Shown here piece after piece: positions 28,429 through 38,238 of a DNA stretch of 64,000 nucleotides. The first letter of the stretch is position 1. Each line of letters starts with the position of its first letter. Under the pieces are notes generated by a model. The model did not search any database, was not told the DNA's origin, and saw only the letters and a list, made by a program, of their open reading frames with translations. The translations under genes and the position numbers were made by a program. Location: contig NZ_JARJNS010000005.1 in NCBI RefSeq assembly GCF_030143245.1, positions 124,001 to 188,000 of the forward strand, given 5' to 3'. This DNA comes from Rhabdaerophilum sp. SD176 (GTDB lineage Bacteria > Pseudomonadota > Alphaproteobacteria > Rhizobiales > Beijerinckiaceae).

Positions 28429-29967
28429 ATGTCGATCAGTCAAAAACTGATGATGCGCCAGAGCCAGTCTCTGGTCATGACGCCGCAGCTGCTGCAGGCG
28501 ATCAAGCTCCTGCAATTCTCTACCGTCGAGCTGCAGGATTATGTCGAGGCTGAACTCGAGAAGAACCCGCTGCTCGAACGGGATGCCCGGGCCGACGAGG
28601 CGCCGATCAGCCAGGAGGAGCGGCCGGATTCGACCGCCACCACGGCCGAGCCCGGAGACTGGGCCCGCGAGGACCTGCCCGCCGACCGCGCCACGCTGGA
28701 GCGCGAGACCGGAACCGATTTCGAGAACGCCTTCCCGGACGAGGCGGTGCCCGACCAGGCCTTGCCCCAGCCGGATTCCCCCTTCTGGAATCTCTCCGGT
28801 GGCAGCGGGAAGGGGGCATCGCTGGATGATGATGATCACAATCTCGAGGCGTATTGCGCCAGCGCAACGACCTTGCACCAGCATCTCGAAAACCAGCTCG
28901 GCTGCACCGACACCGATGATCTGACCCGCGTGATCGCGGCGCAGATGATCGACCAGATCGACCAGACCGGCTATCTGCTCGAATCGCTCGGTGATATCAG
29001 CCAGCGCCTCGGCGTGCCCGAATCGCGCTGCCAGCTGGCGCTGGAAATCGTGCAGGGTTTCGATCCGGTCGGGGTCGGGGCCCGAAATCTGGCCGAATGC
29101 CTCCGGATCCAGCTGCGCGAGAAGGACCGGCTGGACCCCGCCATGGCGGCCTTGGTCGACCATCTCGACCTCCTGGCCAAGCGTGAATTCGGCCAGCTCC
29201 GGCGCGTCTGTGGCGTCGACGAGGAAGATCTGGCGGACATGATCGCCGAGATCCGCCGTCTTGATCCCAAGCCGGGCCTGATCTTCGGCGCCAACCCGGT
29301 GGATCCCGTCACGCCGGATGTGTTTGTCCGCGCGACCCCGGATGGCGGCTGGCAGGTCGATCTGAATTCCGATGCGCTGCCCCGCGTCGTCGCCAACAAG
29401 ACCTTCTATGCCCGCGTGGCCGGCAAGGGTGCCGAGAAGGAAGTGCGGGCCTTTATCGACGAGGCCTGGACCAATGCCAACTGGATCGTCCGCAGCCTCG
29501 AGCAGCGGGCCCGCACCATTCTCAAGGTGGCGAGCGAGATCGTCCGTCAGCAGGATGCGTTCTTCACCTATGGTGTCGCCCATCTCCGGCCGCTCAACCT
29601 GAAGATGATCGCCGATGCCGTGTCCCTGCACGAATCGACCATCAGCCGCGTAACGGCCAACAAGTTCATGTCGACGCCACGTGGCCTGTTCGAGATGAAG
29701 TATTTCTTTACCACGGCGATCGCTTCTTCCGATGGCGGCGCCTCGGTTTCCTCCGAGGCCGTGCGATATCGGATCAAGCAGCTGATCGATCAGGAAGAGG
29801 CGCAGGCCGTGCTCTCCGATGACGCGATCGTCGACAGGCTGCGCGAGATGGGCATCGATATCGCCCGGCGCACCGTGGCCAAGTACCGGGAAGGCCTCGG
29901 CATAGCGTCGTCCTCCGTACGTCGCCGCGAGAAGATGGCCGCCCTGCCGCGCAGCCGCGCCGGCTGA
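28429..29967 (+). CDS. rpoN: RNA polymerase sigma-54 factor
   Basis: Sigma-54 directs transcription of nitrogen-regulated and other -24/-12 promoters. The 512-residue protein has the Gln/Leu-rich region I (residues 1-50), an acidic region II, the core-binding domain (about 125-310), a DNA-binding HTH region and the RpoN box ARRTVAKYRE near residue 482. It is followed by hpf and ptsN, the conserved rpoN neighbourhood. The 162-bp gap after lptB may hold its promoter, but I could not identify convincing boxes. Confidence 0.97.
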   Translation: MSISQKLMMRQSQSLVMTPQLLQAIKLLQFSTVELQDYVEAELEKNPLLERDARADEAPISQEERPDSTATTAEPGDWAREDLPADRATLERETGTDFENAFPDEAVPDQALPQPDSPFWNLSGGSGKGASLDDDDHNLEAYCASATTLHQHLENQLGCTDTDDLTRVIAAQMIDQIDQTGYLLESLGDISQRLGVPESRCQLALEIVQGFDPVGVGARNLAECLRIQLREKDRLDPAMAALVDHLDLLAKREFGQLRRVCGVDEEDLADMIAEIRRLDPKPGLIFGANPVDPVTPDVFVRATPDGGWQVDLNSDALPRVVANKTFYARVAGKGAEKEVRAFIDEAWTNANWIVRSLEQRARTILKVASEIVRQQDAFFTYGVAHLRPLNLKMIADAVSLHESTISRVTANKFMSTPRGLFEMKYFFTTAIASSDGGASVSSEAVRYRIKQLIDQEEAQAVLSDDAIVDRLREMGIDIARRTVAKYREGLGIASSSVRRREKMAALPRSRAG

Positions 29968-30120
29968 ATCCTGCCGAATTTTGCTGCATCCCGCCCGGCT
30001 TGCGGGCAGTGCCCTGTTGCAGGGCAGCACGGGCTGTCGTTGACTTTGCGCGAAGCCCGGACGTAGCCTCTCCTTTCAGAACCAGAGGAGGAATCAGGCG
30101 CAGCATCCCTCACGGAACCC

Positions 30121-30139
30121 TGTGGCCGGCTTGGCCACA
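30121..30139 (+). other. Perfect hairpin in the hpf leader
   Basis: TGTGGCC (30121-30127) pairs with GGCCACA (30133-30139) around GGCTT, about 60 bp before hpf. Upstream, a second small stem GCCCTG-TTG-CAGGGC (30011-30025) lies near the rpoN stop. A TTGACT at 30040-30045 is a possible -35 box for hpf. No T-runs follow, so these are not clear terminators. They may be mRNA-stability or leader elements. Confidence 0.35.
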
Positions 30140-30198
30140 TCGCACCCGAATCGGCCTCCCTCTCCCGGGTGGCCAGGCTCTTATTTGAGGTCTAATCC

Positions 30199-30771
30199 AT
30201 GGCGATACGTGTTTCCGGCAAGAATATCGATCTCGGTGATGTGCTCAGGGCACAGGCAGAGACTCGGCTCAACGATGCGGTGCGCAAATATGTCGATGCC
30301 GGCTATTCGGGTCATGTCACCGTCGCGAAGGACGGGATCGGCTTCAAGACCGAATGTGCAGTCCATTTCGATCACGGCCCGGTCATGCATGTCACGGGCG
30401 AGGCCACGGATGCCTATCAGAGCGTCGGAATCGCGGTGGAGCGGATTGCCAAGCAGCTTCGCCGCTTCAAGCGCAAGCGCGACCGGCACGGCACCGACCG
30501 CCTCAACGCGGCGGATTTTGCCGGGATGCCGGCTCCGATGGTCAATGGCCATGATGATGCCGAGGATGACGTGATCGAAGTCACCGGTGGCGGCGCGGCC
30601 ATCATCGCCGAGCCTCTGGCCGGCGCGATGCGGCTCTCGATCACCGGTGCCGTTGCCGCCTTCGAAAAGGGAACGGCGCCAGTCCTCGTCTTCCGCAATG
30701 CCGGCACCGAGCGGATCAACGTGCTGTACCGGCGCGAGGACGGGCATTACGGCTGGGTTGATATCGGTTGA
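30199..30771 (+). CDS. hpf: Ribosome hibernation promoting factor, long form
   Basis: The 190-residue protein combines the S30AE/YfiA domain (about 1-105) with the C-terminal dimerisation domain of long HPF (about 135-190, ending NVLYRREDGHYGWVDIG). The long form drives direct 100S ribosome dimer formation in stationary phase. It is encoded between rpoN and ptsN, as in most alphaproteobacteria. The ATG at 30199 follows TTGAGGTC. Confidence 0.94.
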   Translation: MAIRVSGKNIDLGDVLRAQAETRLNDAVRKYVDAGYSGHVTVAKDGIGFKTECAVHFDHGPVMHVTGEATDAYQSVGIAVERIAKQLRRFKRKRDRHGTDRLNAADFAGMPAPMVNGHDDAEDDVIEVTGGGAAIIAEPLAGAMRLSITGAVAAFEKGTAPVLVFRNAGTERINVLYRREDGHYGWVDIG

Positions 30772-30841
30772 ACTTGCCCCGCCGGGGCCAGGGTCGAGTT
30801 GGCTCTGGCCTTCCGGCACGCATTCTGCTTAGAGGGTGCCC

Positions 30842-31306
30842 ATGACGATCACCTCTCTGATCACGCCCGAATCGGTGCTGGCCGGCCTCAAGGGGAACGG
30901 CAAGAAGCAGATCCTCCAGGATCTTGCCGGCCATATCGCGCGCGTGGCCGGCCTGAACGAGCGCCTCGTCTTCGAGACGCTGCTCCAGCGTGAGCGGCTG
31001 GGCACGACGGCGATCGGACAGGGCATTGCCATTCCGCATGGCCGCATGGCCGGCCTCGGCCGGCTGGTCGGGTTCTTCGCCCAGCTCGCACGGCCGGTCG
31101 ATTTCGAGGCTTTGGACGGTGAGCCGGTGGATCTCGTCTTCGTGCTTCTTGCACCCGAAGATGCCGGCGCGGACCATCTCCAGGCGCTGGCGCGGATTGC
31201 CCGGCTGTTCCGGGCGCCCGGCGTGCCGCAGAAACTGCGACAGACCGATGATGCTGCGGCGATCTATGCGATCCTGACCTCCGAGACGACGTCCCGCGCC
31301 GCCTGA
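30842..31306 (+). CDS. ptsN: PTS IIA-like nitrogen-regulatory protein (EIIA-Ntr)
   Basis: PtsN is the terminal phospho-acceptor of the PTS-Ntr chain that links nitrogen status to potassium uptake, PHB metabolism and sensor kinases. The 154-residue sequence has the phosphorylated histidine in GIAIPHGRM near residue 66. It has the PTS_EIIA_2 fold signature RERLGTTAIGQGIA. The ATG at 30842 has AGAGGG six bases upstream; a GTG two codons earlier is less likely. It ends the rpoN-hpf-ptsN run. Confidence 0.93.
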   Translation: MTITSLITPESVLAGLKGNGKKQILQDLAGHIARVAGLNERLVFETLLQRERLGTTAIGQGIAIPHGRMAGLGRLVGFFAQLARPVDFEALDGEPVDLVFVLLAPEDAGADHLQALARIARLFRAPGVPQKLRQTDDAAAIYAILTSETTSRAA

Positions 31307-31380
31307 GCGTGGCCTCGATAGGGCATCGGCCCCGGAGCACGCGCCGAAGCCGGCCTCGCCGGTGGTTCAGGTCTCCACCG

Positions 31381-31399
31381 GCCCCTGATCGTCAGGGGC
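31381..31399. terminator. Hairpin between convergent ptsN and UPF0114 gene
   Basis: GCCCCTGA-TCG-TCAGGGGC is a perfect 8-bp stem that overlaps the stop codon of the minus-strand gene. It lies in the convergent gap together with a GC-rich GCCGGCCTCGCCGG stem. The following CTCTTGGCTT is only weakly T-rich, so termination efficiency is doubtful. Confidence 0.4.
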
Positions 31400-31895
31400 T
31401 CTTGGCTTCGCCGGAGATCTTGTCGGTCAGCGCCATCAGCAGGCCCGAACCCACGAAGACCATGTGGATGACCACGAGCCAGATCAGGTCGCGGTCGCTG
31501 ATGTTCTTCACATTCATGAAGGCCTTGAGCACCTGGATCCCGGAAATCGCCACGATCGACGACAGGAGCTTGAGTTTCAGTCCCGAGAAATCGATCTTGC
31601 CCATCCATTCCGGCCAGTCCTTCGCATCATCAACCTCGATCTTGGACACGAAATTCTCGTAGCCCGAGAAAATGACGATGATGATCAGCGATCCGGTCAG
31701 CGTCAGGTCGACCAGCGCAAGAACGCCCAGAATGACATCGGATTCGGTTGCGCTCAGGGCGTGAACGACGAAATGCACCGTCTCCTGGCCGGCCTTGAGC
31801 AGCAGCACGCAGAGCGAGACGACAAGCATCACGTAGAAAGGCGCCAGCAGCCAGCGGCTCCGGAAAAGGAATTGTTCGAGCACACGTTCGATCAT
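31392..31895 (-). CDS. UPF0114/YqhA-family membrane protein (TIGR00645)
   Basis: The 167-residue inner-membrane protein has four predicted helices (about residues 13-35, 53-77, 108-127 and 135-158). Its start, MIERVLEQFLFRSRWLLAPFY, is characteristic of the YqhA/UPF0114 family. Members have been linked to ion channel-like or transport functions, without firm assignment. It is convergent with ptsN and lies 82 bp from the msrA stop, transcribed in the same direction. Confidence 0.8.
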   Translation of the reverse strand: MIERVLEQFLFRSRWLLAPFYVMLVVSLCVLLLKAGQETVHFVVHALSATESDVILGVLALVDLTLTGSLIIIVIFSGYENFVSKIEVDDAKDWPEWMGKIDFSGLKLKLLSSIVAISGIQVLKAFMNVKNISDRDLIWLVVIHMVFVGSGLLMALTDKISGEAKSP

Positions 31896-31977
31896 GGGGG
31901 CACCTGGCCGGGAAAAGACAGGCAGCCCTTAGCATCCGGCGCGGCCGATGAGAAGCGGCATGCCTGTTCCGGCAGGC

Positions 31978-32634
31978 TCACCCTGCAGCTTGAGCCAGTC
32001 CGATTGGGCAGGACACGCCGGTGCCGCCGAGGCCGCAATAGCCGGCCGGGTTCTTGGCCAGGTATTGCTGGTGATATTCTTCGGCGAAATAGAACGGCCC
32101 CGCCTCGCGGATCTCGGTCGTGATCCGGCCGTAGCCGCGGGCATCCAGCGCCGTCTGGAATGCGGCCATCGAGGCTTCCGCTGCCTGTCTTTGGGCCGGA
32201 CTGGCCACATAGATCCCGGAACGGTATTGCGTGCCGATATCATTGCCCTGCCGCATGCCCTGGGTGGGGTCATGATTCTCCCAGAACGTCTTCAGGAGCA
32301 TGTCGTAGCTGATCTGAGCCGGATCATGGACCACGAGAACCACCTCGTTATGGCCGGTCAGGCCGGAACAGACCTCTTCATAGGTCGGGTTCGGCGTGTA
32401 GCCGGCGGCATAGCCGACCGCGGTTGTCCAGATGCCGGCACCGAGCTGCCAGAACTTGCGTTCCGCGCCCCAGAAGCAGCCCAGCCCGAAAATGGCCGTT
32501 TCCAGACCCTCGGGATAGGGTCCCTTGAGCGGGTGGCCCAGCACATGGTGCCGGCTGGCGGTGGCGATCGGAGCCTCCCGACCCGGCAGGGCGGTGGCGG
32601 CGCTCGGCATTTCGGATTTCTTGCGGAAAAACAT
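31978..32634 (-). CDS. msrA: Peptide-methionine (S)-S-oxide reductase MsrA
   Basis: MsrA reduces methionine-S-sulfoxide in proteins and free amino acid. The catalytic cysteine is in [14 protein letters not shown] near residue 54. The recycling cysteines are in the C-terminal [12 protein letters not shown]. The family motif [17 protein letters not shown] is present. The 218-residue length includes an N-terminal extension of about 45 residues usual for this MsrA type. The start at 32634 follows AAGGGA. The frame stays open upstream through the tRNA-Ser repeat region, but that extension is not MsrA. Confidence 0.93.
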
Positions 32635-32739
32635 CGGATTTCCCTTTCGCTGGCTTGTTGCAAGCTGGGGCCTCGCATGCAGCCGTGCAACCCCTGTCAA
32701 CCAAACGTGAAACCATCGCGAGCATGCGCTTCGCAAGCC

Positions 32740-32768
32740 TTGCATTTTCCGCCGCACCCCGCCATAAG
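32740..32768 (+). promoter_or_regulatory. Candidate sigma-70 promoter for the tRNA-Ser locus
   Basis: TTGCAT (32740-32745), a 17-bp spacer and CATAAG (32763-32768) form a reasonable promoter on the plus strand. Initiation would be near 32775. That is about 48 bp before the first tRNA-like half repeat and 240 bp before the intact tRNA. If this is the promoter, the repeats are part of the tRNA precursor. Confidence 0.35.
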
Positions 32769-32822
32769 GCCGGGCTTGCGTCGCCCAGCGGCGTGATACC
32801 CGCGCCTTCCCGGCGCGCGTAC

Positions 32823-32852
32823 GGACAGGTGGCCGAGTGGTTGAAGGCGCAC
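32823..32852 (+). pseudogene. tRNA-Ser 5' part, first extra copy
   Basis: These 30 nt are identical to positions 1-30 of the downstream tRNA-Ser(GGA): acceptor 5' strand GGACAGG, the D-arm and the first bases of the anticodon stem. No anticodon loop, T-arm or acceptor 3' strand follows. Four bases GTCC at 32875-32878, directly after the palindrome, could pair with GGAC to give a short closing stem. Confidence 0.85.
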
Positions 32853-32854
32853 CA

Positions 32855-32874
32855 GCGATGCCCGAGGGCATCGC
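32855..32874. repeat. Palindrome in the first repeat unit
   Basis: GCGATGCCC and GGGCATCGC form a perfect 9-bp inverted repeat around GA, at the place where the anticodon arm would begin. The equivalent sequence in unit 2 differs only at the two centre bases. Confidence 0.85.
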
Positions 32875-32918
32875 GTCCGAAGCAAAGGAAATTGCGTGCG
32901 CCTTTCCGGCGCGCGTAC

Positions 32919-32948
32919 GGACAGGTGGCCGAGTGGTTGAAGGCGCAC
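32919..32948 (+). pseudogene. tRNA-Ser 5' part, second extra copy
   Basis: This is a second exact copy of tRNA-Ser positions 1-30, exactly 96 bp after the first and 96 bp before the intact gene. It is followed by the second palindrome and by GTCC at 32971-32974. It cannot encode a functional tRNA by itself. Confidence 0.85.
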
Positions 32949-32950
32949 CA

Positions 32951-32970
32951 GCGATGCCCCGGGGCATCGC
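32951..32970. repeat. Palindrome in the second repeat unit
   Basis: GCGATGCCCC and GGGGCATCGC form a perfect 20-bp palindrome. Relative to unit 1, GA at the centre has become CG, which keeps or lengthens the stem. Confidence 0.85.
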
Positions 32971-33014
32971 GTCCGAAGCAAAGGAAATTGCGTGCGCCTT
33001 CCCGGCGCGCGTAC

Positions 33015-33104
33015 GGACAGGTGGCCGAGTGGTTGAAGGCGCACGCCTGGAACGCGTGTATAGGGGCAACTCTATCGAGGGTTCGAATCCCTCCCTGTCC
33101 GCCA
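33015..33104 (+). tRNA. tRNA-Ser (anticodon GGA)
   Basis: A full 90-nt class II tRNA is present. The acceptor stem is GGACAGG/CCTGTCC with discriminator G and encoded CCA (33102-33104). The anticodon stem CACGC/GCGTG encloses loop CTGGAAC with anticodon GGA, which reads UCC and UCU. A long variable arm and the T-arm GAGGG-TTCGAAT-CCCTC complete it. It lies between msrA (divergent) and a convergent CPBP-protease gene. Its 5' 30 nt are the source of the upstream repeats. Confidence 0.96.
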
Positions 33105-33134
33105 TCATTCATAAAATTGGGAAATTGCGCGCAG

Positions 33135-34007
33135 CTAAGAAGCGCTGCGTTTCCAGCTCGGCGGCACGATCCGCCCGCGCTTGATCGCCATGAACAGCAG
33201 CACAAGGCCCGTTATGGTGCAGAACGCGAAGGCAAGGACCGACGATTCCAGCCCGAAACTGCCTCCGGTCAAGACTTCCGGCCCGCGGATGTTGGAGCGG
33301 ATCAATCCCGGCTCGGAAATCGAACCGGAAACGATGCCGGAGAAAATGGCTGACTGCGTGTAGTTCCAGGCCATGTGGAAGCCGATGCTGAGCCAAAGTC
33401 GGCGGGTCAGCATAAAGGCGGCGGCAAGCAGGATGCCCGCTTCAATGCTGATGTAGATTGCGCCGGTTATCGTGCCAGCCGGGTTTGCCAGGTGCACAAA
33501 TCCGAACACGAGCGCAGAAACAGCGAGCGAGATCCAGCTGCCAGCCATGTCTTCGACCGAGCGGAAGAGAATACCACGAAAGAAAAGTTCCTCGAAAAAT
33601 CCGGAACTCAGCGCCATCGCGATTGCAGGAATCACGAAGGTCCAGGGGTTCAGACCGTCGATGCGGTACATCCCGAGCGCCATCAAGACGAGAATACAAG
33701 CGGTGTAGAGCCCGGCGCCGATCAACATTCCCGTTCCCCATTCCCGGCCTGCGCCTGAAAGGGAAAGCTCGCTCAGCGGGCGCCGCTCGATGAAACGGGT
33801 CCAGCCGGCATAGAAGGCGATCGCCGCGCTCGCCATACCCATCACAGCCGCAATCGCTTTCAGCGGGTCTCCCTTGAAATAGGCCATGAAGCCACTGCTG
33901 AGGCCCATCATGACAAAGATCGGGCCGCCGAGCAGCAAGAGACGGGCGAGCGGGGATTGCAGGATACGCAACCAGAGAGGCCGGTCGATGTTTTCTGCTC
34001 CGGACAT
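33135..34007 (-). CDS. CPBP-family intramembrane glutamic endopeptidase
   Basis: The 290-residue membrane protein has about eight hydrophobic segments. It carries the CPBP (Abi/CAAX-like) motifs: FFEELFFRG (EExxxR, about residues 142-150), FGFVHLANP and GFHMAWNYTQ with the conserved histidines. Family members are membrane proteases or bacteriocin self-immunity proteins; the substrate is unknown. GC content is roughly 58%, lower than nearby genes, and it sits next to the tRNA-Ser gene, which fits acquisition by transfer. It ends 30 bp from the tRNA, in convergent orientation. Confidence 0.8.
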   Translation of the reverse strand: MSGAENIDRPLWLRILQSPLARLLLLGGPIFVMMGLSSGFMAYFKGDPLKAIAAVMGMASAAIAFYAGWTRFIERRPLSELSLSGAGREWGTGMLIGAGLYTACILVLMALGMYRIDGLNPWTFVIPAIAMALSSGFFEELFFRGILFRSVEDMAGSWISLAVSALVFGFVHLANPAGTITGAIYISIEAGILLAAAFMLTRRLWLSIGFHMAWNYTQSAIFSGIVSGSISEPGLIRSNIRGPEVLTGGSFGLESSVLAFAFCTITGLVLLFMAIKRGRIVPPSWKRSAS

Positions 34008-34198
34008 GGAGAATTTCCTCGGCGGCGATCTTCAGCGGGTGGCCCTATACTTCATGAAGTGTGTCCGCCAACGCAACCGGAAAGTCCTCGCCGGGCTTCC
34101 GATTCTCCGCCAAAGTCCCGAGCGGGAATGAGGCTGGCAAGCAAGCGGGCGCTTTCCGGGCTTGTTGTTCATCGGGGATCGATGCTTGCCCCAGGCAG

Positions 34199-34226
34199 TT
34201 GAAATTTAACGATTGCACGCTAGAAC
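34199..34226 (+). promoter_or_regulatory. Candidate promoter of nhaA
   Basis: TTGAAA (34199-34204), a 16-bp spacer and TAGAAC (34221-34226) lie 80 bp upstream of the nhaA start. The divergent gap 34008-34305 holds no gene. It also contains a perfect palindrome ACTTCATGAAGT at 34049-34060, nearer the CPBP gene, which could be an operator for that gene. Confidence 0.4.
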
Positions 34227-34305
34227 CCGTCCCGGGTGCATTGTCCGGGCGTCGGGCAGGCAGGGTTTACGGAGGTCGGGCCGCCTTCGCAGGGAACCCG
34301 TATCC

Positions 34306-35469
34306 ATGCGCCAGCCTTTCGCCATCCGTCATTTCCTGAAGAGTGAAGCCGCAGGCGGCATCATCCTGATGGGTGTTGCCTTCCTTGCCATCGTCATCGC
34401 GAATTCTCCCCTTGCGCCGGTCTATTTCTCGACCCTCGGCCGCTACATTGGCGGGCTGTCGGTCCTGCACTGGATCAACGACGCGCTGATGGCGGTGTTT
34501 TTCCTGCTGGTCGGGCTGGAAATCAAACGCGAGTTTCTTGTCGGCCAGCTCTCGACCTGGCCAAGCCGCGCCTTGCCCGGTCTCGCGGCCTTGGGCGGCA
34601 TGGTGGTCCCCGGGCTGATCTACGTGGCGTTCAATGTCCAATCGCCGGAAACATTGCGCGGCTGGGCCATCCCGGCGGCGACCGACATTGCCTTCGCCCT
34701 CGGCGTGCTTTCGCTGCTGGGATCGCGCGTTCCGATTTCACTCAAGGTATTCCTGACCGCGCTGGCCATTCTCGATGACCTCGGCGCCGTCATCATCATC
34801 GCCCTGTTCTATACGGCCAAACTGAACCTGCTCGCCCTGCTGGGCGCGCTGGGCGTGCTTGTGGCGCTCGTGGCCCTCAACCGCTTCGGGCATCGGAAAC
34901 TGCCTGCCTATCTCCTGCTTGGCGGGCTGCTCTGGGCGTTCGTCCTCAAATCGGGCGTCCACGCGACGCTGGCGGGTGTCATGCTCGCCCTGACGATCCC
35001 GCTGACGCCGCCACCGGGTGGGGTTGACGAGGAGGAGCCACCGCTGAACCGGCTTGAACATGCGCTTCATCCCTGGGTCGCATTCCTGATCATTCCGGTC
35101 TTCGGATTTGCCAATGCCGGCGTCTCGCTGGCGGGGGTCGGTCCGTCGGCCCTGCTCGCCTCCGTCCCGCTGGGCATCATGCTTGGGCTGTTTGTCGGCA
35201 AGCAGATCGGCGTGTTCGGCTTCGCCTGGATCGCCATCCGGACCGGTCTTGCCGACCTGCCGGCCAGGGCGACCTGGCTGCAGCTCTACGGCATCTCGCT
35301 CCTCTGCGGGATCGGCTTCACGATGAGCCTTTTCATCGGCCTGCTGGCCTTCCCCGGCTCGCCGGGCTTTCAGGATCAGACCAAGATCGGCGTTCTCGCG
35401 GGTTCGCTCTTGGCGGGAACGATCGGCTGGCTGGTCCTGCGGCTGGCTCCCGCCGACAGGCGAGACTGA
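34306..35469 (+). CDS. nhaA: Na+/H+ antiporter NhaA
   Basis: NhaA exchanges protons for sodium ions across the inner membrane in alkaline or saline conditions. The 387-residue protein has about twelve hydrophobic segments. The ion-binding aspartate pair is in [18 protein letters not shown] near residue 155. [24 protein letters not shown] and [12 protein letters not shown] are further family signatures. I chose ATG 34306 ([18 protein letters not shown]) behind AGGGA. An in-frame start 93 bp upstream adds an Arg-rich segment not expected in NhaA. Confidence 0.95.
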
Positions 35470-35502
35470 GCCGGGCCGGAGCGGTCCGGGAAGGATCCCT
35501 GC

Positions 35503-35530
35503 TTGATCAACTTGCCAATTGTGGCATAAA
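35503..35530 (+). promoter_or_regulatory. Candidate promoter of the L,D-transpeptidase-like gene
   Basis: TTGATC (35503-35508), a 16-bp spacer and CATAAA (35525-35530) lie 87 bp before the start. A small inverted repeat TGCCA-ATTG-TGGCA overlaps the spacer and -10 region. Confidence 0.35.
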
Positions 35531-35616
35531 GCGCCAATCTCAGGCAGAAATGTCGGGTTCAGGCGTGTGTACCGGAGTTTTCTCTGGTCGGAAGGCAGGA
35601 CAGGGGAAATTCCGCG

Positions 35617-36306
35617 ATGATTATCACGGGCAAGGACAGCAAGGATGCGGGCCTGCAGCCCGCCGGCAACCTCCACCGCCGCTCGTTCCTCCTTGGCGCG
35701 ACGGCCGGTCTGGGCGCGCTGGCTCTGGGCGGTTGCGTCACGAATGACGGCATGAGCCTCGCCGAGGCGGAAAAACTTTACGGCGCGGTGCCGGACAAGA
35801 AATTTCCGATCCCGGCGGTCGATATCAGCCAGGTTGATCCGAAATACTTCCGCCGCACCGTGCGTATGGAGACCGACGAGGCGCCGGGCACGATCATCGT
35901 CGATCCCAAGAACTTCTACGTCTATCGGATCGAGGGCGAGGGCAATGCCACGCGCTATGGCGCCAATGTCGGACGCGAAGGCTTCCTCTGGAGTGGTGAA
36001 GCCTATGTCGGGCGGAAGGCCGAATGGCCGACCTGGACGCCGCCGAGGGAAATGATCAAGCGCCAGCCGGAAGTCGCGAAATATGCCCGCGGCATGCCGG
36101 GCGGCCCCGAAAACCCGCTCGGTGCGCGCACGCTGTATCTGTATCAGAATGGCGTCTACACGCTGTACACGCTCTACAGCACCAGCGATCCGGAATCGAT
36201 CGGCAGCGGCGTGACCAGCGGTTGCACAGGCCTGCTGACGCAGGACATGATCGACCTTTATGACCGGACGCCGGTCAAGACGAAGGTGATTGTCCTGCCG
36301 GCCTGA
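35617..36306 (+). CDS. YkuD-fold L,D-transpeptidase-like lipoprotein with altered active site
   Basis: The 229-residue protein has a twin-arginine-like signal (RRSFLLGATAGLGALALGGC) with a lipobox ending in Cys about 41, so it is probably a lipoprotein. The YkuD domain spans about 85-228. The nucleophile region reads GSGVTSGCTGLL, keeping the cysteine. The usual catalytic-histidine motif HGT upstream reads YST (in TLYSTSDPESIG), and the Arg of SxGCxR is Gly. Canonical enzymes cross-link peptidoglycan or attach proteins to it. This one may be inactive, use other residues, or belong to a distinct rhizobial subfamily. Confidence 0.8.
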   Translation: MIITGKDSKDAGLQPAGNLHRRSFLLGATAGLGALALGGCVTNDGMSLAEAEKLYGAVPDKKFPIPAVDISQVDPKYFRRTVRMETDEAPGTIIVDPKNFYVYRIEGEGNATRYGANVGREGFLWSGEAYVGRKAEWPTWTPPREMIKRQPEVAKYARGMPGGPENPLGARTLYLYQNGVYTLYTLYSTSDPESIGSGVTSGCTGLLTQDMIDLYDRTPVKTKVIVLPA

Positions 36307-36319
36307 GTGAGGCCAGCCA

Positions 36320-37111
36320 TCATTTGAGGCTGTTGGCCAGGAAGCTCTGCAGCCTTTCGCTGCGCGGGTTCGACAGGATCTCGGCAGGTGGCCCTTCTTC
36401 CTCGATCACCCCGCGATGGAGGAAGATCACCCGGCTCGCCACCTCGCGCGCAAAGCCCATCTCGTGCGTGACCACCAGCATGGTCCGGCCTTCTTCCGCG
36501 AGCGAGCGCATCACGCGGAGAACCTCGCCCACCAGTTCGGGATCGAGCGCGGAGGTCGGCTCGTCGAACAGCATGACCTCCGGCTCCATCGCGAGGGCCC
36601 GGGCGATCGCCACGCGCTGCTGCTCGCCACCCGACATATGCGAGGGATAGGCATCCTTGCGATGGCTGACGCCGACCCGCGCCAGATAATGCTCTGCGCG
36701 GGCGACAGCCTCCGCCCGCGAAAGGCCGAGCACCCGGATCGGCGCTTCGATGACATTCTCGAGGGCCGTCATATGCCCCCAGAGGTTGAATTGCTGGAAC
36801 ACCATGGCGAGGCGCGCCCGCATGCGCTGGAGTTGCAGCGGATCCTCGGCATCAAGCTCGCCCCGGCGATCAGGGACAAGGCGTAACTCCTCGCCGCTGA
36901 CGATGATCCGCCCGGCATTCGGCTTCTCGAGCAGGTTCAGGCAGCGCAGAACCGTGCTCTTGCCCGAACCGGATGAGCCGATCATCGCGATGACATCGCC
37001 CGATTTGGCGGCAAGGGACACGCCTTTCAGCACCTCGACCGTGCCGAAGCTCTTCCGGAGCTCCTCCGCGCGCAGCTTCTCGACCGGCCCGGCGGCCATC
37101 TCCTTGGACAT
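36320..37111 (-). CDS. Polar amino acid ABC transporter, ATP-binding protein
   Basis: This ATPase (263 residues from ATG 37111) energises uptake by the permeases encoded upstream. It has Walker [11 protein letters not shown]-loop FQQFNLW, signature [15 protein letters not shown], Walker B VMLFDEP and the switch His in VVTHEMG. It is closest in type to HisP/OccP/GlnQ (PAAT family). AAGGAG precedes 37111; an ATG 15 bp upstream overlaps the stop of the deacylase gene (ATGA) and is also possible. It is the last gene of a five-gene minus-strand operon. Confidence 0.9.
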
Positions 37112-37122
37112 GGGGAACTCCT

Positions 37123-38238
37123 TCATGGGCTCAGGAGGCGGCCGCTGCGCCGGAGGCTGTCTCCGGCAACCTTGCCGAGACGTTTTCCCGGCGTCACGAA
37201 AGTCTCGGCGGAGCGTGCGTAGAACATGCCGGCCGAAAGCGTCGTGACCGGAGTCAGGGCACCGGTGATCGGATCGATGATATCCGCCAGGATCTCTCCG
37301 GCCTTCACTGTTTCACCGGCCTTCCGGCGATAGGTGAGGATGCCGCCAGCCGGCGCGATGATCGGCTCCGAGGCCTCAAGCCGCGTCGGCCGGCACAGCA
37401 GGGGCGGCAGATCGGGCTTTTCGCCGTCGAGCACGCCCGCATGGCAGAGGAAACCCAGGATTGCGTGGGCATCGGCCTCGGCCAGATCCTGGGCGACATC
37501 CGACTGGCCGCGCAACTCCACCGTCACGGCATGGCAGCCGTCCGGCAATGGCCGGTCCGGCCTGGCCTTGGCCAGTTCCGCCCAGGGGCGGCTCAGCGCT
37601 TCGTCGAACGGATCACCGCCGGAAACATCCGCCAGCAGGATCGCCTTGGCGCCCAGAAGCGCGGCGAGCGGGGTGAAAGCGAGCAGTGAACGCGGTTGTG
37701 TGTAGAGATGGAGGGCGGCATCGGCATCGCAATGCAGGTCAAGGACAAGATCGGCATCCAGCGCAAGCCGGAGCAAGGCCGCCTTCAGATGCTGCGGAGC
37801 GCTGCTCCGCGGCTGCTGCCACAGGGCTTCGGCAAAGGCCTCGCGCACCGTGCGTCCGTTCAGGGTCTCGTCCATGGTCAGCCGGTCGCCCACGCGAGCG
37901 ACAAGCAGTGCCGCAAGATCCGGAAAGTCGCGGTTGAAATTGCCGCCATCGGACAGCGAGAAGCGGCCGACCGGCAGGCCGAGAACCTGCTGGGCGAGAC
38001 CGATCGGGTTGGCGACCGGCACGAGCGTCACCTGCCCGACCAGCGCGCCGGCCGCATCGAGCGCGGCCAGTTCGCGCCGCAGCACCTGCGCGCAGATCAT
38101 GCCGGGGATTTCGTCCGCATGCAGCGCCGCCTGGATGTAGACATGCGGCCGGGCATTGCGGCGGCCGAACCGGTGCACGGTGAGGCTGTATTCGGTGCCC
38201 GGGCTCCCCGAGGGGATGGCGATTGTTTCGGTGGGCAT
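37123..38238 (-). CDS. Succinylglutamate desuccinylase/aspartoacylase-family deacylase
   Basis: The 371-residue M14-like zinc hydrolase shows the metal motif HADEIPG (HxxE, about residues 40-46) and the third ligand in LDLHCD (about 165-170). The C-terminal 90 residues form a lipoyl/biotin-like beta-barrel region ([27 protein letters not shown]). Relatives deacylate N-acyl amino acids, such as AstE, aspartoacylase and the DoeB/EutE ectoine enzymes. Its place between permease and ATPase genes suggests that the imported compound is an N-acylated amino acid or that import feeds this step. The substrate is unknown. Confidence 0.82.

Follow-up and report, generated by a model that had tools for sequence, protein, structure and literature searches.

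A recurrent array of truncated tRNA-Ser(GGA) copies upstream of the intact gene as a candidate structured RNA

In Escherichia coli, the 178-bp tyrT repeats with their rtT RNA lie downstream of the tRNA and duplicate its 3' end, and 3'ETS-leuZ, a pre-tRNA spacer, acts as a sponge or decoy. We know of no bacterium in which a tRNA gene controls its own maturation through decoy copies of itself. The nearest published idea that we found is, going by the excerpt of the article, tRNA-Other of Bacillus cereus, a pseudo-tRNA proposed there to lie inside a longer regulatory RNA (PMC3399842). Excerpted text on tRNA recognition further states that RNase P measures the stack of T arm and acceptor stem (PMC4919913). 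Among the open-licence PMC matches listed, none describes copies of a tRNA 5' end arrayed before a bacterial tRNA gene. The locus reported here has exactly this arrangement, and the statement in the first-pass annotation that no described class fits it held for Rfam as well as for those articles: the only Rfam families in the window (the whole stretch of 64,000 nucleotides that was analysed) are the tRNA gene itself and nhaA-I, and over the units no family reached its cut-off in a search with E up to 10.

The sole tRNA gene in the window is tRNA-Ser(GGA) at 33015-33104, called by ARAGORN with Rfam in agreement. Sequence comparison confirmed the earlier observation that GGACAGG starts at 32823, 32919 and 33015, spaced exactly 96 bp apart, and that all three copies agree over their first 30 nt. 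As also proposed, the last copy alone extends into a full tRNA, both programs calling 33015-33104 only and no functional tRNA in the units. The 21-nt leader does precede each of the three copies, with one change in the middle one (C to T at 32905), and the claim that the repetition is confined to the 5' end stood for nt 1-30 and required amendment, since many units also hold a strand able to pair with the acceptor 5' strand. Each unit runs in the order tRNA nt 1-30, CA, a perfect hairpin GCGATGCC-NNNN-GGCATCGC, GTCC, an A-rich linker, GCGTGCGCC and a short leader. This 8-bp hairpin abuts GTCC, a possible pairing partner for the GGAC that opens the copy. In addition, the leader strand GCGTGCGCCTTC is a perfect complement to 12 nt of the real tRNA-Ser(GGA). 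The features are as follows.

32740..32768, + strand: promoter-like site TTGCAT-17-CATAAG, putatively for the tRNA-Ser transcript (hexamer scan, 11/12 match)
32802..32822, + strand: 21-nt leader, first copy, with hairpin GCGCC/GGCGC (sequence repeat and predicted fold)
32823..32918, + strand: unit 1, 96 bp start to start with unit 2 (repeat comparison; covariance model match)
32823..32852, + strand: unit 1, copy of tRNA-Ser(GGA) nt 1-30 (sequence identity)
32855..32874, + strand: unit 1 hairpin GCGATGCC(CGAG)GGCATCGC (predicted fold, comparison between units)
32875..32878, + strand: unit 1 GTCC, predicted to pair with GGAC at 32823-32826 in an acceptor-like helix
32879..32893, + strand: unit 1 A-rich linker (comparison between units)
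32894..32902, + strand: unit 1 strand GCGTGCGCC, with the predicted partners GGCGCAC of the unit, the leader 3' arm at 32908-32916, or the downstream copy
32919..33014, + strand: unit 2, 96 bp, 97% identical to unit 1 (repeat comparison; covariance model match)
32951..32970, + strand: unit 2 hairpin GCGATGCC(CCGG)GGCATCGC (predicted fold)
32990..33012, + strand: unit 2 GCGTGCGCC and leader hairpin, with 32990-33001 complementary to tRNA 33035-33046 (predicted pairing)
33015..33104, + strand: intact tRNA-Ser(GGA), CCA encoded (ARAGORN, Rfam)

Tandem Repeats Finder scored the array at 465 and the three remaining arrays in the window at 62 to 93, and the folding energies of three 96-nt stretches lay 2.9 to 4.3 standard deviations below those of shuffles. 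When the 41 tRNA genes of the same genome were scanned, the 300 nt upstream of tRNA-Ser(GGA) matched its own 5' end at 30/30 positions and those of the 40 other genes at no more than 19/30; likewise, the longest antisense match to the own tRNA within a 45-nt leader was 12 nt at tRNA-Ser(GGA) and at most 9 nt elsewhere. An integrase attachment site was rejected for the array, as copies 96 bp apart start to start are too close to flank a gene, and an rtT-type repeat was rejected because the units lie upstream and copy nt 1-30.

With an exact pattern, which requires the 5' part of a downstream tRNA-Ser and to which units elsewhere are invisible, units were found in 18 of 397 genomes of the window's family, belonging to 8 of its 43 genera; the spread is patchy (379/397 genomes had no exact match), and the reversed pattern had no match among the family-scan rows listed. 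At the level of the order the exact pattern matched 4/397 genomes, one of them from a different family, and a loosened pattern matched 2/385 genomes of the class, both from the window's family. A scan of 84,980 named species yielded 29 stretches, of which 26 proved on reading to be units; L066 was rejected as a unit array, the stretch being two adjacent full tRNAs, and the remaining two stretches, L073 and L076, hold an analogous arrangement. Three of the unit-bearing genomes are named isolates, Xanthobacter tagetidis ATCC 700314 and Chelatococcus reniformis CGMCC 1.12919 with two units each and Blastochloris sulfoviridis DSM 729 with one, and many of the relatives are MAGs. A chance repeat is excluded because the units recur in other genera. 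The private neutral version of a tandem amplification kept by chance, one of the possibilities first suggested, is for that reason unsupported, and a widespread neutral one is possible.

We further built a covariance model from 12 units, for which no downstream tRNA part is required. In the window's genus it matched 5 of 17 genomes and missed the unit-bearing genomes G015 and G006, so that pattern and reading together gave a unit in 7/17. In the family it matched 23/169 genomes and added five beyond the pattern (G043, G121, G183, G190 and G205), and in the order 3/297, all from the window's family, with filters that lose weak matches. On whether the unit always precedes tRNA-Ser(GGA), which had been raised as a check, 18 of the 23 family matches do lie beside this gene; in G059 the contig ends before reaching it, and the four matches L153-L156 were dropped as false, there being no tRNA within the 3 kb examined. 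Outside the unit family proper, two MAGs (L073 and L076, one named Robiginitomaculum) carry an analogue of different sequence upstream of tRNA-Ser(GGA), in which copies of GGTGAGGTG and GGTTTAAGGCGCAC are separated by hairpins and a strand is able to close an acceptor-like helix. Phage records contained no match to the unit; five plasmid records matched the tRNA 5' part alone, one with ten additional leader bases. An IMG/VR viral contig (L160, 774-2108 and 3051-3216) holds a host msrA-like ORF, one unit, tRNA-Ser(GGA) and then, on the 3' side of the tRNA, an ORF that reads like a large serine recombinase; the contig is host DNA bordering an integrated element, and this tRNA may serve as an integration site on its 3' side.

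Comparison of the units showed that pairing is kept at fixed places while the letters change. In the hairpin, 18 arm pairs across 29 units (29 of 34 rows, with four second copies and L006 left out) gave 218 Watson-Crick pairs, 1 GU and 3 mismatches out of 222; the arms were picked as the best hairpin, which inflates this percentage, and the point is the fixed place of the hairpin with changing letters. RNAalifold on alignment A1 missed the hairpin, because arms differing in length (7, 8 and 9 bp) had not been aligned correctly. In alignment A3, which was fitted to the structure (40 rows, one of them a reverse-strand match in L065), 98.7% of cells were paired and two-sided changes numbered 32, compared with 5.9 in shuffles. 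The motif GCGTGCG was present in 33/33 pattern-found units from many genera although it is absent from the pattern, and in 37/40 units of the enlarged set, the exceptions being L148 and L149, with GCATGCG, and L017, from which the motif is lost. The stem GGCGCAC/GTGCGCC comprised 262 Watson-Crick pairs, 9 GU and 2 mismatches in 273 cells (39 of 40 units), counted on strands that were located through partly fixed motifs, which limits the possible variation. In L148 and L149, which belong to one genus, a C-G pair of this closing stem is changed to T-A (U-A in RNA) while their tRNAs keep the C; all two-sided changes of the closing stem come from that genus. The mean folding z of 33 units was -2.5.

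Between two clades of the window's genus the 16 hairpin arm bases are identical, and alignment between the clades scored 0.39 to 0.57 for the flanks (without a random control) and 0.58 to 0.71 for the unit-specific segment. Within the window's clade (L001, L005, L006 and L007) the unit-specific segment, at 0.88-0.95, is not better conserved than the upstream flank, at 0.91-0.96. The linker and loops are, by eye, the least conserved parts of the unit. The units thus fit the description of a conserved structured RNA, pairs being kept through two-sided changes across species in the aligned and folded units, and we conclude that they probably are a selected structured RNA.

The strand that follows the hairpin can in many units reconstitute an acceptor-like helix. 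Its pairing with the unit's own acceptor 5' strand amounted to 137, compared with 116.4 when acceptor strands were permuted among units, and none of 5000 permutations reached this value (29 distinct rows from related species; the hairpin finder misread L034, L075 and L077, 3/34 rows). Seven acceptor pairs, GU counted, occur in L008, L009, L017, L038, L039, L048, L050, L061 and L065; L063, L078, L049 and L035 have a weak helix or none. The L150 unit has T at position 7, perhaps from a one-base deletion, and A on the opposite strand. At least four pairs of nt 1-7 were present in the minimum-energy folds of 26/39 units, compared with 8 to 19 in 20 linker shuffles; in L049, L075 and L078 this count takes in hairpin bases as pairing partners, and a recount confined to the sequence past the hairpin gave 23/39, compared with 5 to 16 in 20 linker shuffles. 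The predicted fold of the unit consists of the acceptor helix, part of the D arm and one hairpin, whose 3' arm continues straight into the acceptor-like strand, like a T arm. On these predictions, a unit has the look of a tRNA in which one hairpin stands in for the anticodon, variable and T arms, with the acceptor-pairing strand kept in many units.

The minimum-energy folds are predicted to fall into two groups, in that the leader hairpin mostly forms alongside the acceptor helix and is excluded by the closing stem. One or the other fold was the minimum in 37/39 units, compared with 20 to 32 in shuffles. The closing-stem fold was the minimum in 11/39 units and is no commoner than in linker shuffles that keep the stem strands (11 to 15). 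The acceptor helix and the closing stem cross each other and would, if formed together, give a pseudoknot. A third partner is the tRNA itself: wherever this was scored, GCGTGCGCC together with the next two bases could pair at 8 to 11 of 11 positions in the real tRNA.

The promoter-like site at 32740-32768 was the best-scoring one, and none of 40 shuffles equalled its score. Sites of at least 10/12 occurred upstream of the array in 16/34 loci and within the units in 0/34, with variants that include TTGCAT-17-CATAAG and TTGCAC-16-TATAAG. The hexamers were derived partly from the window, so that its own genus is no independent test; 9 of the 16 loci belong to other genera. A generic sigma-70 scan found no site, and the region 32600-33250 contained no terminator-like site. 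From this arrangement we infer that the units are transcribed together with tRNA-Ser(GGA). The suggestion of a structured RNA array that may be co-transcribed with the tRNA gains support from conservation, from pair-preserving changes and from the upstream promoter-like site.

In 27 of 34 non-redundant unit loci, as in some loci free of units, a divergently read msrA is found upstream, and by this gene order the unit locus is orthologous between genomes. Downstream in the window, an Rfam nhaA-I RNA motif (34234-34289, +, 45.9 bits, cut-off 37) lies within the start of an ORF (34213-35469) that reads like NhaA. Long ORFs also run across the array and the tRNA (31978-33108 and 32378-33205 on the minus strand, 32655-33353 on the plus strand) and encode repeated peptides. 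The repeated portions look spurious, with a risk that reading frames through arrays of this kind enter annotations as repeat proteins.

Copy number varied in the related genomes, as the first-pass annotation had asked, from zero to two within one genus. The close relatives G003 and G007 (L012 and L008) have near-identical leaders that differ by one unit, which implies that units are dispensable. The 5' part of the unit also tracks the host's own tRNA, with GGGCAGG in L009, GGTTTAAGG in L035 and GGCTGAAGG in L145 found in unit and gene alike. Both the tracking and the one-unit difference can be explained by recombination between the repeated leader and tRNA part; zero, one and two copies point to exchange between direct repeats of about 51 bp that would alter the copy number and keep the 5' part like the gene. 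The array itself probably arose from a tandem tRNA copy in which the anticodon, variable and T arms were then replaced by one hairpin. Apparent decayed units were seen by eye upstream of tRNA-Ser(GGA) in L013, L015 and L024.

Cloverleaf pair probabilities of the tRNA were predicted for 33 loci. They averaged 0.83 for the bare tRNA, and the mean fell to 0.71 when 25 nt of leader were added and to 0.48 when one unit was included; once the units were removed, it was 0.57. The units had no predicted effect of their own on downstream tRNA folding, as shuffled and real bodies gave 0.450 and 0.474 (p = 0.6), and a model in which the leader insulates or sequesters the tRNA is unsupported, real and shuffled unit bodies predicting the same cloverleaf probability. 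A regulator of tRNA-Ser maturation, as first suggested, is possible; this folding test gave no effect relative to shuffled units.

Taken together, our reading of the locus is tentative and falls somewhat short of an even chance: the units would be structured RNA modules that derive from the tRNA, sit in the 5' leader of its transcript and act in cis in the precursor. In one predicted shape, a unit would adopt the truncated tRNA-like fold (acceptor helix, D-arm segment and hairpin) with the leader hairpin after it; in the other, GGCGCAC would pair with GUGCGCC and enclose the same hairpin. The GUGCGCC strand, being complementary also to the real tRNA, would have a further partner. The units might then engage tRNA end-processing enzymes such as RNase P, either as substrates or as decoys, and the pairing switch might set the timing of release of the real tRNA. 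We regard such a role in cis processing, taken by itself, as doubtful. Rather unlikely, going by the same evidence, is the bolder idea of a new class of cis RNA, in which a tRNA gene carries truncated copies of itself as bistable leader modules, one strand choosing between leader hairpin, closing stem and real tRNA and so setting the release of one isoacceptor; the analogue in L073 and L076 would then represent a second, independent origin. The best-supported claim is structure and recurrence rather than mechanism, and most likely the units are kept by selection and homogenised by recombination.

The main competing explanation is a non-functional partial duplication of the tRNA, in which recombination keeps the 5' part and template switching at DNA palindromes perfects the hairpin. 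Copy numbers of 0 to 2 in one genus with a one-unit gap between close relatives, a 5' part that follows changes of the own tRNA (L145, L009 and L035) and decayed remnants seen by eye in L013 and L024 are what such a duplication would leave behind, the single GU among 222 hairpin pairs could point to palindrome repair at the DNA level, and within the clade the unit is conserved no better than its upstream flank. It does not account for GCGTGCG, a motif outside the pattern, in every pattern-found unit of many genera, for identical hairpin arms across clades whose flanks have diverged, for pair-preserving changes, or for the absence of comparable copies from the genome's 40 other scanned tRNA genes, and we consider this duplication possible but the less probable course. 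An artefact of assembly can practically be dismissed: the window's genome is in 25 contigs and many relatives are MAGs, and against this the units occur in three named isolates and tandem copies differ from one another.

Two further explanations keep a function and move it elsewhere. The units could be cut from the precursor to yield a trans-acting sRNA, a sponge or decoy like 3'ETS-leuZ of E. coli, for which their modular build, stable hairpins and a promoter-like site upstream in 16/34 loci would be suitable; the linker and loops are by eye the least conserved parts, the opposite of what a base-pairing seed needs, and we consider this role unlikely. Very unlikely is an element acting at the DNA level on the 5' part of the tRNA, be it an attachment site, a recombination site or a protein-binding palindrome. 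Near-perfect palindromes with few GU would suit it, as would the integrated element of L160 beside a unit-bearing tRNA-Ser(GGA), with an ORF reading like a serine recombinase. In L160, however, the tRNA separates the two, with this ORF 3' of the tRNA and the unit towards msrA; no recombinase was read among ORFs of at least 150 aa at 29500-37500 in the window, the searches of phage and plasmid records gave no phage match and five plasmid matches to the tRNA part only (one of them with the ten leader bases), and acceptor pairing is left unexplained.

Regardless of role, the preferred reading of tRNA-derived structured modules describes a recurrent structured motif that is tied to one isoacceptor gene and lies below every Rfam cut-off, and the array is an example of how copies of a tRNA can be put to use as RNA structures. 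Should the units act in cis, the gene would be steering the maturation of its own tRNA with decoy copies of itself. The natural variants with 0, 1 and 2 copies in close relatives make this question directly testable.

Among known systems, the array shares with tyrT/rtT of E. coli tandem repeats that contain part of the tRNA, and unlike them its units precede the tRNA and copy the 5' end together with a pairing acceptor strand. Like the 3'ETS-leuZ spacers, the units would lie outside the tRNA in a tRNA transcript and may have a role of their own, whereas those spacers have neither a tRNA copy nor a tandem array and the units have no known sRNA partner. T-box and tRNA-related leaders, as described in the excerpt of PMC4919913, are similar in that a leader RNA involves tRNA recognition or tRNA-like parts; in contrast to T-box leaders, the units have no T-box match in Rfam and the downstream gene is a tRNA rather than an mRNA. 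Closest is tRNA-Other, in the excerpt of PMC3399842 likewise a tRNA-like element outside translation and a proposed part of a larger transcript. That element is a pseudo-tRNA beside a genomic island, whereas here one or two truncated tandem units stand, in another phylum, before the functional gene that they resemble.
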